DNA from: Planctomycetia bacterium
GTDB taxonomy: Bacteria; Planctomycetota; Phycisphaerae; UBA1845; Fen-1342
NCBI GenBank assembly: GCA_015709575.1
Contig: CP054190.1
Location: forward strand, 2,044,616 to 2,108,615
Length of the DNA stretch: 64,000 nt
Reading direction: 5' to 3'
Shown here: one piece after another, positions 26,617 through 40,448 of the stretch
How the letters are laid out: every line of letters starts with the position of its first letter
How positions within the stretch are numbered: the first letter of the stretch is position 1
Program-made: the position numbers and the translations under genes
Notes under the pieces: model-generated
Database searches by the model: none
The model's input: only the letters and a program-made list of their open reading frames with translations
What the model was told of the DNA's origin: nothing

Positions 26617-26688
26617 TCCCCGATAGCTCAATGGTAGAGCAACCGGCTGTTAACCGGTTTGTTGTAGGTTCGAGTCCTACTCGGGGAG
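26617..26688 (+). tRNA. tRNA-Asn (anticodon GTT)
   Basis: The acceptor stem TCCCCGA/TCGGGGA (26617-26623 with 26681-26687) and G73 at 26688, anticodon stem ACCGG/CCGGT with loop CTGTTAA (anticodon GTT), and T-loop GGTTCGAGTCC give a complete 72-nt tRNA. CCA is not encoded. It borders the mobile remnant to its right. Confidence 0.95.
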
Positions 26689-26733
26689 CTAATATTCCGG
26701 TCGCGGAACGACGCGACCGACGAGTTAACGATG

Positions 26734-27074: not shown

Positions 27075-27701
27075 ATGTGCAACTGGTACCGCCTCAAGGC
27101 TAGGCCCGATGAGCTGATCGATTTGAGGTGGTTGCCGCGCGATACGCGCGTACCCGACATTTCATCGGACTTCTTTCCCGGCATGCCCGTCCCCGTGATT
27201 CGTCGGCACAGCGATGCGCGACAACTCGATGAGATGACTTGGGGTTTTCCAGCGTTCAATGGCGGGCGGCCGATCAACAACACGCGTTCCGAGAAGGCAG
27301 CCTCAAGCCCGTTTTGGAAACGGCACCTCGAAAATCGCTGCCTATTTCCTATCACCGGTGCGATAGAGTGGCAGCACCGGGCCAACCTGCAGACGGGCAA
27401 AGTGCAAAAGATTCCACATATGATCAGCTTCCGCGATGCCGGCATCGGAGCCGTGGCCGGCATCTATGGCGTTGGGCCAGGCGGGGCGTGCTGTTCGATG
27501 ATGACATGCCGCGCGAACCGTCTGTGGTCCACGATTCACAACGCCAAACCCGATGATCCGCGAATGCCGTGTTTCCTGCTTGATCCGGAATCCATCGCGA
27601 CCTGGCTGGACCCCGATCGGTCCTACGAGAGGGCTCTCGACTTGCTCCAGCCGCTGTCCGACAACGCCGACCTGCTGATCGCCGGGCCCAAAGATTTTTG
27701 A
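27075..27701 (+). CDS. SRAP-domain protein (YedK/HMCES family)
   Basis: 208 aa. The family's catalytic Cys is residue 2 (MCNWYRL), followed by NNTRSEKA (Asn and Arg of the site), a Glu in TGAIEW and His in TIHNAKPDDPRMP. SRAP proteins form a thiazolidine DNA-protein crosslink between Cys2 and an abasic site in single-stranded DNA, shielding it from error-prone synthesis. All four key positions are present. It lies 47 bp ahead of the umuD-like gene in a probable operon with umuD-umuC, which fits a DNA-damage cassette. The middle is slightly shorter than E. coli YedK (222 aa). Confidence 0.88.
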   Translation: MCNWYRLKARPDELIDLRWLPRDTRVPDISSDFFPGMPVPVIRRHSDARQLDEMTWGFPAFNGGRPINNTRSEKAASSPFWKRHLENRCLFPITGAIEWQHRANLQTGKVQKIPHMISFRDAGIGAVAGIYGVGPGGACCSMMTCRANRLWSTIHNAKPDDPRMPCFLLDPESIATWLDPDRSYERALDLLQPLSDNADLLIAGPKDF

Positions 27702-27728
27702 TGCACGGATGATTGACGGCGGCCAGAT

Positions 27729-27743
27729 GTTCGTATAATGTTA
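27729..27743 (+). promoter_or_regulatory. Possible SOS box overlapping a -10 element
   Basis: GTTC-N7-GTTA stands 5 bp ahead of the umuD-like ATG at 27749. The alphaproteobacterial LexA site is GTTC-N7-GTTC, so this is one base off. TATAAT (27734-27739) lies inside the spacer, so a bound repressor would block the promoter. The LexA site of this organism is unknown, hence low confidence. Confidence 0.35.
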
Positions 27744-27748
27744 GGTAT

Positions 27749-28075
27749 ATGATACAGCTCCGCGTTCCCATTCTCGGCAATGTAAGTGCCGGCTTCCCCA
27801 AGTCATCGGAGGGTTATGAGGATCACCCGATCAACCTTCAGGATTTGCTGGTTACGCGGCCGGCGGCAACGTTTTTCTTCCGCGTGGTCGGCGACGATCT
27901 ACGCGATCAAGGGGTGCCCGGCGGCGCGGTGCTGGTGGTTGATCGTTCGCTCTCGCTAAAGCCCGGCCGACTGGCCGTCGTAGAGCAGGATGGCGTATTT
28001 ATTGTGCGCAGGCTTCTGGCCCAGGATTCGGCGACGATCTGCGGCATCGTGACTGCCGCGATCGTGAGATTGTGA
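27749..28075 (+). CDS. UmuD-like protein without the Ser-Lys catalytic dyad
   Basis: 108 aa from the ATG at 27749. It aligns over its length with UmuD: the cleavage-type Ala-Gly bond (A14-G15 in VSAGFP), INLQDLL, PAATFFFRVVG, and VLVVDRSL. The catalytic Ser of GDSM (E. coli S60) is Asp here (VVGDDL, D50), and the catalytic Lys (K97 in TVKKL) is Arg (IVRRL, R87). Only 13 residues precede the cleavage-type Ala, against 23 in E. coli. It should therefore be unable to cleave itself and may act as a pre-shortened partner of the polymerase. It ends 6 bp before umuC. The identity of the fold is firm; the function is inferred. Confidence 0.85.
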   Translation: MIQLRVPILGNVSAGFPKSSEGYEDHPINLQDLLVTRPAATFFFRVVGDDLRDQGVPGGAVLVVDRSLSLKPGRLAVVEQDGVFIVRRLLAQDSATICGIVTAAIVRL

Positions 28076-28081
28076 CCCACC

Positions 28082-29371
28082 ATGCTGGCGCACGTGGACG
28101 CCAACAACTTTTACGCCTCCTGCGAGCAGGTCTTTAATCCCGCGCTACGCGGCAAGCCAGTCGTGGTGCTCTCCAATAACGACGGCGTCGTCGTGGCGCG
28201 CTCTGTCGAGGCAAAGGCGCTCGGCATCGACATGGCCCGGCCGTACTTCGAGATCGAATCGCTGCTGAAGCAGCGCCACGTCCACGTTCTGAGCAGCAAC
28301 TACACGCTTTACGATGACATGAGCAACCGGCTAGCGGACATTTACCGCCATGCCACCGATCACGTCGAAGTGTACTCCATCGACGAGTGCTTCCTGTCGT
28401 TCGACGACATCCGCCGCAGCGATCTCATCAACCACGGCCGGGACTTGCGCTACACCGTATTGCGCTGGACCGGTCTCGGCGTGGGCGTCGGCATCGCCCC
28501 ATCCAAGACCCTGGCCAAGCTGGCGAACCACCTGGCCAAGCGTGTCCCTGAAAACGCAGGTGTCTGTGTGTTGGTCAATGAAGAGGCGATTACTGCGGCA
28601 CTGGCACAGGTGGAATTGACCGATCTGTGGGGGATATCAGGCGGGTTCCAGCGCCGCCTCGCGGGACTTGGCATTCACTCGCCGCTGGAGCTGCGCGCTG
28701 CTGATCCGCATCGCGTCCGCAAGGGCCTGGGCGTGGTCGGCCAGCGCATCGTCTTCGAGTTGCGCGGCGAATCCTGCCTGCCGCTGGAGCTGATTGTCCC
28801 CGACAAGCAGAACATCTGCTGTTCGCGCTCATTTGGTCAGGAAACCCGCAACTTCGATGAGCTGCGCGAAGCGGTCTGCACCTTTGCTTCGCAAGCCGCC
28901 GTCAAGCTGCGCCGTCAGGATTTGGCCGCCGGCGCGGTGTCCGTGTTCATCGGCACGAACATTCACGCCCCCGTCGAGCAGTATCACAACAGCTACGGCG
29001 TCAGCCTGGCGGTGCCCTCCTTTGACACCCGCGAGATCGCACGCGCGGCGGTCTACTGCCTGAGCCATATCCATCGACCACAGCACTCCTGCAAGAAGGC
29101 GGGGGTGATGCTCCACGGGCTGCTCAAGCGCTTGCACATCCAACCCCACCTGTTTGATCAGCGCGATCATGAGCGCGACCGCCGACTAATGCTGACGATG
29201 GACCGGATTAATCGCGACTATGGCCGTGGAACAATCCGCATCAGTGCGGCGGCGGCGTTTGAACTTATGCCGGGGCGCACGGTCGCCTGGCGGGGCCGGT
29301 GCGAGCAACGATCTCCGCGTTACACCACGCGCTGGGACGAGTTGCCGTTAGCGAGGGCGCAAGCCCCCTGA
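28082..29371 (+). CDS. umuC: Y-family DNA polymerase, UmuC
   Basis: 429 aa, full length for UmuC (E. coli 422). Metal-binding acid residues are in [10 protein letters not shown] (D6) and SIDECFL (about residues 100-106). The helix-hairpin-helix region [20 protein letters not shown] lies near 182-202, and the little-finger domain and the UmuC ending [14 protein letters not shown] are present. It should perform translesion synthesis as part of a Pol V-like complex. It follows the umuD-like gene by 6 bp, within an SRAP-umuD-umuC operon. The codon pattern does not differ clearly from the core. Confidence 0.93.
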
Positions 29372-29810: not shown

Positions 29811-30317
29811 ATGGCGCTGAACGTTGCGAAAGAGATCGCCGCGCTAAAGAGCATGACCGTGGGGCAGCTCCGCGAGAAGTACCAGACGGTCTTCGGCGAA
29901 CCGACGCAGGCCGGCAACAAGGACTTTCTGTTCAAGCGGATTGTCTGGCGGCTTCAGTCGTTGGCTGAGGGCGACCTGTCGGAGCGGGCACGCAAACGCG
30001 CGGCCGAGATCGCGCGCGACGCCGACATCCGCATGACGATTCCGAAGCCGCCGAAGACTAGCGCCGGCGCGGAACGCCGCACCGTCGCCGCGCCCGCGGC
30101 GCTTGGCGACGACCGGCTGCCGATCCCCGGAACCGTTCTCACCCGAACGTATCGTGGCCGGGCGCACCATGTGACCGTGCTGCCGAAGGGCTTCGACTAC
30201 GACGGCGAGGTCTACCGGACGCTCACCGCCGTCGCCAGGAAGATCACCGGCTCACACTGGAACGGGTTCCTGTTTTTCGGGTTGGTGAAGCCCGGCGCGG
30301 AGGCGACGGATGAGTAA
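29811..30317 (+). CDS. DUF2924 family protein
   Basis: 168 aa. The N-terminal half is helical (MTVGQLREKYQTVFGEPTQ, then KDFLFKRIVWRLQ), and the C-terminal half is the conserved DUF2924 core: PIPGTVLTRTYRGRAHHVTVLPKGFDY, ARKITGSHWNGFLFFGL. The family travels with large serine recombinases and is thought to aid them or to bind DNA, but no role is proven. AAAGGAGAA lies before the ATG. Its last codons overlap the recombinase start by 8 bp, so the two were translated together. Confidence 0.85.
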   Translation: MALNVAKEIAALKSMTVGQLREKYQTVFGEPTQAGNKDFLFKRIVWRLQSLAEGDLSERARKRAAEIARDADIRMTIPKPPKTSAGAERRTVAAPAALGDDRLPIPGTVLTRTYRGRAHHVTVLPKGFDYDGEVYRTLTAVARKITGSHWNGFLFFGLVKPGAEATDE

Positions 30318-30574
30318 ACGCCGCCCGACGACCGCGCCGCCGACCAAGGTCATCCGCTGCGCCATCTACACGCGCAAGAGCACTGAGGAGGGGCTCGAGC
30401 AAGAATTCAATTCGCTCGACGCGCAGCGCGAATCGGGCGAGGCGTACATCACCAGCCAGAAGGCCGAGGGCTGGGTCTGCCTGCCGGACCGCTACGACGA
30501 TGGCGGCTACACCGGTGGAAACATGGACCGGCCGGCTTTGAAGCGCCTGTTTGAGGACATTGAGGCCGGCCGGG
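30310..30574 (+). pseudogene. Serine recombinase, 3'-truncated
   Basis: The first 88 codons match the resolvase catalytic domain of large serine recombinases: CAIYTRKSTEEGLEQEF with the nucleophile Ser, SLDAQRESGEAYI, and DDGGYTGGNMDRPALKRL. After EAGRV, where family members go on with a Val-rich strand and VDRLSR, the frame enters the antisense of the neighbouring redoxin gene and stops at 30651. The rest of the usual 500 or so residues, including the DNA-binding part, is missing. The break at about 30574 is the right edge of the island. The product cannot be an active recombinase. Confidence 0.85.
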
Positions 30575-31504
30575 TCACCGCCGAACCGCGCGGAGGATCT
30601 CCTCCGCCGTTGCCCGCGCCTGCACGCGCGTCGATGCCTGCCGCCAGGTAATCCGCCGATTCGCATCCACGATCATCACCGCCGGAATCGCAAGATCGCC
30701 CTTGCGCGCCCCGGCCAGCCAGCCGCCCTCGCCGCCCCCGCGACTGGCGCCCGCCCCCACGTGCCGCAATCCCAGCGCGTCGACCAGTACCCCGCCCGTG
30801 TCGCTGAGCACCGGAAACGGCAGCCGGTTGTACTCAGCCGTCACGCGCGCCAGCGCGGGCGGGTCCATGGACACGGCGACAAGCCGCACTCCGGCGGCGC
30901 GAAGCGCGGCGTCGGCCGCCGCCAGTCGTCTCAGGTGTGCCGCGCAGGACGGGTCGCGCCCGGTGCGATAAAAAACCAGCGCAAGGAGGCCTGATTGCCC
31001 GGAATCGCCGGCCACCCGCGGACCGACCTCCACTCCCACGCCGCCGTTTCGGTCGAGCTCCGTGGCGTGTATCAACCCGCCCTCGACTCCTGGCTCGCGC
31101 CTCAACAACCCATCCAGCGTCCACCACGCGCCGCTCGAGTCCGGCAATGTGAACTCTGGACAGTTGAAGCGGAGGAACTCCGCTCGCGGTGCGGGCAGAC
31201 GGGACAGTACGATAAATCCGAACAGGAAGTGTGCCGCCCACACCCAGCAGAACACGGCCGCCGCGCGCGGCATCAATCTCCGCGTTGACCTCCAAGCGGC
31301 GATGGCGAGTACGCTCGACGCAATGACGAGCGCTCCCCCGATCACCGCCCATCGCTGCAAAACTTCAATTTCGCCCGCCACGATGTTGAGCGGCACGGCA
31401 GCCAGCGCCAGCGCTACCCCCAAGCCAGCGCACCACGAGCTGCGGCGCTCGCGCAATACGGCGGCCGATTGACCGGAATCCGTTCCAGCAATAACGGGCG
31501 TCAT
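30575..31504 (-). CDS. Membrane-anchored redoxin-like protein without peroxidatic Cys
   Basis: 309 aa. Three hydrophobic segments (about 27-42, 50-69 and 82-101) precede a redoxin/AhpC-TSA domain (about 113-305): FTLPDSSGAWWTLDGLL, LLALVFYRTGRDPSCAAHL, VRLVAVSMDPPALARV, FPVLSDTGGVLVDALGLRHVG. In the family the strand ends FYRGxWCPxC; here Asp stands in the first Cys place (GRDPSC) and only the second Cys is kept. Peroxidase action is thus unlikely by the usual route. An insert (residues 135-165) enlarges the first loop. The stop codon lies exactly at the island junction, yet the ending looks natural. Confidence 0.68.
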   Translation of the reverse strand: MTPVIAGTDSGQSAAVLRERRSSWCAGLGVALALAAVPLNIVAGEIEVLQRWAVIGGALVIASSVLAIAAWRSTRRLMPRAAAVFCWVWAAHFLFGFIVLSRLPAPRAEFLRFNCPEFTLPDSSGAWWTLDGLLRREPGVEGGLIHATELDRNGGVGVEVGPRVAGDSGQSGLLALVFYRTGRDPSCAAHLRRLAAADAALRAAGVRLVAVSMDPPALARVTAEYNRLPFPVLSDTGGVLVDALGLRHVGAGASRGGGEGGWLAGARKGDLAIPAVMIVDANRRITWRQASTRVQARATAEEILRAVRR

Positions 31505-40251: not shown

Positions 40252-40448
40252 CCCCGTCGGGCGCTGAAATTCCGTCGCCGGCGGCCAGCCGATGGACAGT
40301 TAGGGACATGTAAGGTTTGTGAAGTTTGCGCAACCGCAGCCAGGGCAGACGGAAATGCTCTGGCGTTGCCCGGCACTCGAACGATACTATTATATAACGA
40401 TCACACGGATGACCGCGTATCGATGTTCGATGCCGCGTCTCCGGCTTG

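Follow-up and report, generated by a model that had tools for sequence, protein, structure and literature searches.

A conserved planctomycete clade of UmuD homologues lacking both catalytic residues

Textbooks describe self-cleavage of UmuD as the second lock on mutagenic Pol V. In Escherichia coli, UmuD/UmuD' has an S24 fold, carries Ser60 and Lys97, and is encoded next to umuC. We analysed a 64,000-nucleotide stretch of DNA from a Planctomycetia bacterium (the window), in which a gene on the forward strand at 27749-28075 encodes a 108-residue protein that shares this fold and the adjoining umuC. As a preliminary description of the locus had proposed, the protein aligns with E. coli UmuD over the key stretch with zero gaps (query residues 12-94), but it lacks both Ser60 and Lys97. 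Compared to E. coli UmuD, its arm starts around residue 12 and is 1 residue shorter between Pro16 and Gly25, which gives it a LexA-like register, and the ~20 residues that precede the last strand of the E. coli protein are missing.

Short UmuD'-like proteins that need no processing step are known from phages (HumD, N15 gp26, and HK140), and they are a partial precedent for a gene under a LexA site that encodes a UmuD'-like form directly. In phage P1, humD follows an annotated LexA site, and its annotation states that it complements UmuD'; a LexA-type box also precedes the window umuD. While the N-terminus of the phage proteins coincides with that of UmuD' (Met-Gly-Phe-Pro), the window protein has 14 residues before the Gly, and it scores below the HumD cut-off (NCBIfam NF051876, 46.4 bits versus 120). 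The phage proteins keep the Lys, the catalytic Ser is absent from those of N15 and HK140, no umuC adjoins the phage genes in the stretches read, and their identity to the window protein is ~35-40%. Most likely, the window protein is a cellular counterpart of phage HumD in which the uncut arm has been kept.

Mobile Pol V operons (mucAB and plasmid umuDC) also pair umuD with umuC and, as here, probably represent horizontally acquired segments. However, mucA and the plasmid umuD matches are annotated as autoproteolytic, and the pLD91 plasmid copy keeps both the Ser and the Lys that the window protein lacks. SRAP-umuDC neighbourhoods (PMC3765255) and SRAP-like/UmuC modules (PMC12926913) show the same adjacency as the window, although the window SRAP gene does not carry umuD's box and SRAP is missing in several family members. 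Non-peptidase small subunits, YqjX/YolD, have been proposed for a UmuC-type polymerase in Bacillus (PMC6511836, PMC12926913); these are unrelated in sequence, whereas the window protein is a true S24-fold protein whose active site has been lost. We found no catalytically dead cellular UmuD in the open-licence literature, a result that does not prove absence.

Loss of the catalytic dyad

The product of the umuD-like gene matches Pfam Peptidase_S24 (E 1.7e-12) and scores above the curated cut-off for the S24 fold (PF00717, 47.5 bits versus 23.3). The closest PDB match of its modelled fold is UmuD' (1ay9); the model was built from four sequences and is of moderate quality (mean pLDDT 70.6), and the position of the arm is not argued from it. 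In the E. coli alignment, Asp50 (GDDL) occupies the position of Ser60 and Arg87 (IVRRL) that of Lys97. The protein falls below the cut-off for autoproteolytic UmuD (NCBIfam NF007621, 69 bits versus 110); of the features that define that group, the Ser-Lys dyad is absent and the adjacent umuC, with a DUF4113 domain and a UmuD'-binding tail, is present. The window protein is a UmuD homologue without either catalytic residue, a pseudo-peptidase, and the open reading frame and the alignment bear out the coordinates, frame, and two substitutions given in the preliminary description.

The Ala14-Gly15 cleavage-type bond had been reported as kept behind an arm of 13 residues; the bond is indeed present, but 14 residues lie ahead of it. 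Pro to Gly spans nine residues both in the window protein (VPILGNVSAG) and in the genome's own LexA (LPLAGRIAAG), compared to ten in canonical UmuD (e.g. PVFIARIAAG). The hydrophobic docking pattern of the arm is conserved across the UmuD-like family, whose intact members share the shorter arm with its LexA-like register and all lack the ~20 residues that separate the Lys strand from the last strand. A parallel C-terminal shortening was observed in a UmuD of another genome (L018, G313), where Ser and Lys are intact and the stretch that follows the Lys strand is missing as in the dead family.

A sequencing error or a single-strain mutation as the source of the substitutions was ruled out by six relatives in other genomes. 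It had also been noted that the claim would fall if a nearby Ser-Lys pair took over catalysis in homologues. No such pair was evident across the clade in the alignment of relatives, since no Lys elsewhere is invariant (Lys18 is replaced by Ser in L009) and the lone invariant Ser, Ser67 of the VDRS motif, is present in canonical UmuD too. A substitute dyad was thus rejected.

Distribution and selection in the family

Homologues were collected and their Ser and Lys sites tabulated, as the preliminary description had proposed. In Phycisphaerae/Planctomycetota MAGs, a search of genome contigs returned three relatives with 68-73% identity (GDVL, GDAL, and GDAL around the Ser site, RR at that of the Lys), and a class survey of 397 genomes yielded three further loci (GDDL/ATRL, GDEL/VCRF, and GNHL/VVRRL). 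Both catalytic residues are lost in all six relatives, which come from six other planctomycete genomes, with D, V, A, E, or H at the Ser site of the family and R, T, or C at the Lys site. By comparison, 43/43 canonical UmuD proteins tabulated for this class and phylum keep both. Each of the six members whose umuD gene is intact has the Ala-Gly pair, and most members conserve EGYED, PAATFF, and VVGD elsewhere in the protein. A variable, dead Ser site combined with strong conservation elsewhere looks like the pattern of catalysis lost under continued selection.

Between five family members, dN/dS is ~0.1-0.3, an approximate value because synonymous sites are near saturation, which indicates that the dead-UmuD family is under purifying selection. 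The family's UmuC proteins group in a single clade (SH-aLRT support 100%) whose internal branches are deep. Collectively, these findings confirm and strengthen the view that the dead UmuD proteins make up a conserved clade, a lineage rather than an accident.

Intact frames are found in the window and in L004, L006, L008, and L009. The GNHL/VVRRL locus (G251; L057 5891-6858) has a stop inside the dead umuD and a umuC match that is truncated, so that it resembles a pseudogene, and the umuC of L005 (4318-5604) has an in-frame stop. The distribution of the cassette is patchy, and no other genome among 27 from the window's family or 114 from its order carried a member. We rejected a phage or viral source, as a pattern search of IMG/VR returned 109 matches and zero relatives; phage and plasmid UmuD matches were all <60% identical. 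As a separate observation, one genome (G044) encodes identical UmuD sequences 2.4 kb apart (L015 and L053, C1:3801976 and 3804388), each followed by umuC, in a tandem umuDC duplication.

Promoter, neighbouring genes, and repair set

A sigma-70-like promoter (TTGACG - 17 nt - TAATGT, 27713-27741, forward strand) lies between the SRAP gene and umuD, with its -10 element ending 7 nt ahead of the umuD ATG. The same layout is found in L004, L005, L006, and L008, which makes a leaderless umuD transcript probable and lends good support to the start codon. Overlapping the -10 element on the same strand is a candidate LexA box, GTTCGTATAATGTTAGG, at 27729-27745, a direct repeat of the form GTTNGG-N5-GTTNGG whose 11-base layout is that of the alphaproteobacterial box GTTC-N7-GTTC (PMC8565304).

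To score this box, we used a matrix built from four other genomes and judged significance against 400 dinucleotide shuffles. The umuD box scored 16.2, compared to 19.3 for the box before the genome's own lexA and 15.4 for that before recA, each matched in 0/400 shuffles. A relaxed pattern, picked after the lexA sites had already been seen, occurred at 4 sites genome-wide, 3 of them ahead of the window umuD or lexA, while the reversed control gave 0. Several canonical umuD genes of the class bear the same box; none was found in the stretch scanned for the G060 member (L009). Since the predicted umuDC box is of the type that precedes the genome's own lexA and recA, LexA presumably binds it, and transcriptional SOS control appears to have been kept while control by self-cleavage is gone. 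The changed control that had been suspected for this cassette can thus be specified as loss of the cleavage step with a LexA-type box retained at the promoter.

In the window's genome, two tandem boxes (L002 2753-2820, minus strand) precede a short frame ahead of lexA that is possibly the first gene of a lexA operon. A weaker site in the window, GTTAGGGACATGTAAGG (40299-40315, score 15.3), precedes a frame in which GAF-like and response-regulator-like domains were recognized by eye, and is possibly a further SOS target.

The gene upstream of umuD (27075-27701, forward strand) encodes a full-length SRAP protein of the HMCES/YedK family (Pfam SRAP, E 1.6e-27) with the active-site motifs Cys2, NNTRSE, AIEW, and TIHN. 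SRAP adjoining umuDC is a neighbourhood that has already been described (Aravind 2013, PMC3765255). SRAP also lies ahead of umuD in L004 and L006, while in L005 a reading of the upstream DNA by eye showed only a C-terminal remnant; in the loci of G055 and G060, SRAP was not found within ~6 kb. Control of SRAP by the umuD-type box was rejected, as the 300 nt upstream of the gene contained no box (best score 6.2, with 121/400 shuffles as good). The preliminary description had read the three genes as an SRAP-umuD-umuC operon. The neighbourhood is real, yet not obligatory, and because the umuDC promoter and box sit between SRAP and umuD, the term operon is not supported. What holds of that proposal is a Pol V accessory protein that is unable to cleave itself, in a cassette with changed control; an obligate SRAP partner does not.

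The segment has a G+C content of 59-63%, compared to mostly 65-70% in its flanks. It is bounded by tRNA-Asn (26617-26689), before SRAP, and, after umuC, by a DUF2924 gene with a short, truncated serine-resolvase fragment (29811-30651); these flanking features are probably the remains of an integrated element. The G060 cassette adjoins tmRNA. No convincing copy of the tRNA-Asn end was found as a flanking direct repeat. Acquisition was likely horizontal, at a tRNA or tmRNA site.

The umuC gene (28082-29371, forward strand) encodes a 429-residue Y-family polymerase that retains D6, D101/E102, and a clamp-type motif, QPHLF, at 354-358. Its DUF4113 region contains a RecA-NT motif and, at 410-422, the tail that in E. 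coli UmuC is the UmuD'-binding element (PMC6511836, PMC11791011). Judged from these motifs, UmuC looks intact and functional. It is the sole Y-family gene found in the window's genome, which has one RecA and one LexA, the latter with catalytic Ser and Lys. A second, canonical UmuD was excluded, as the only matches in this genome were the gene itself, LexA, and one weak hit (E 0.33). Family UmuC proteins carry several substitutions that are absent or rare in canonical UmuC: C7A, adjoining the catalytic D6, in 5/5; A103C, adjoining D101/E102, and C36V in 4/5; and, further along, R271Q, E274V, and F295H. That these changes adapt the polymerase to the uncut arm is a guess. Beside the dead umuDC cassette of L004 (5693-7187, minus strand), a probable DinB polymerase, which also matches UmuC, and an IS630-type transposase fragment were recognized by eye.

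Possible roles of a UmuD that lacks its catalytic dyad

The preliminary description had left three options, with the protein ready to act from the outset, processed in trans, or holding the polymerase inactive. Sequence cannot fully separate them. We favour the first, given a UmuC that looks fully functional and the lack of a further UmuD, and consider it reasonably probable that the window protein is a cleavage-independent Pol V accessory subunit that dispenses with UmuD-to-UmuD' maturation. In this scheme, DNA damage would lead RecA to inactivate the cell's ordinary LexA, which would derepress the umuD-umuC promoter. The short UmuD-like protein, unable to cut itself, would then dimerise, bind the UmuC tail, and form, together with UmuC and RecA, a translesion polymerase directly. 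It would act like UmuD' despite the 14 residues that precede the former cleavage bond, with the shortened arm now probably a fixed structural strand, and transcription and the binding of RecA to UmuC would be the points of control.

Several observations count against this explanation. In published Pol V models, UmuD' has its free N-terminus close to the active site of UmuC (PMC11791011); a protein that stays uncut has no such terminus to offer. There is also no obvious need for the docking pattern and the Ala-Gly bond in an always-active protein. In E. coli, the non-cleavable UmuD delta-8 S60A, with a 16-residue arm, supports mutagenesis poorly and can sensitise cells to UV, which shows that an uncut arm can inhibit; with the arm cut to six residues, non-cleavable UmuD partly mimics UmuD', while the 16-residue form is UmuD-like and inhibitory (PMC5342242). 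The retained arm, these E. coli data, and the placement of the free UmuD' end lend some weight to the other two options.

It is accordingly conceivable, though unlikely, that the protein is locked in an uncleaved, UmuD-like state that binds UmuC and other replication proteins and restrains the polymerase or redirects it to accurate bypass or a checkpoint role. Conservation of the arm and of its docking pattern fits such a brake, as does the lowered mutagenesis seen in E. coli with a non-cleavable UmuD of comparable arm length (PMC5342242). However, it would leave the genome's sole Y-family polymerase without an activating partner, and with the operon under a lexA-type box, brake and polymerase would be induced together. 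We give a lower probability to a damage-triggered cut of the Ala-Gly bond in trans that would yield a UmuD'-like form, with the LexA active site or a different protease of the cell as the most plausible agents. UmuD S60A is cleaved by the other UmuD active site in heterodimers (PMC5342242), but the window's genome has no second UmuD to play this part. The arm register matches that of the genome's own LexA, unlike that of canonical UmuD, and the Ala-Gly pair persists in every member with an intact umuD; on the other hand, LexA would have to cut a foreign substrate, an ability of which we saw no sign, and structural reasons could explain why Ala-Gly was retained. The stricter version, in which the protein is purely a substrate whose LexA-like arm is cut in trans by LexA during SOS, so that a single peptidase would open the promoter and also mature the polymerase subunit made from it, is quite improbable. 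Least probable of all is a decaying remnant in which umuD function has been lost and UmuC acts alone or is also decaying. The degenerate copies in G251 and L005 and the patchy distribution would fit decay, but the low dN/dS across a deep divergence, the five loci with intact frames, and the conserved promoter and box argue against it.

Under the preferred reading, that of a subunit that works uncut, gene expression and partner binding seem to be the only remaining control of mutagenic repair. The two locks on this repair would then have been separated in nature, and a natural, conserved Pol V that lacks the cleavage lock and keeps a LexA-type box would provide a test of what cleavage is for, be it timing, activation, or partner choice. 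The window protein may also serve as a minimal accessory subunit for structural work.
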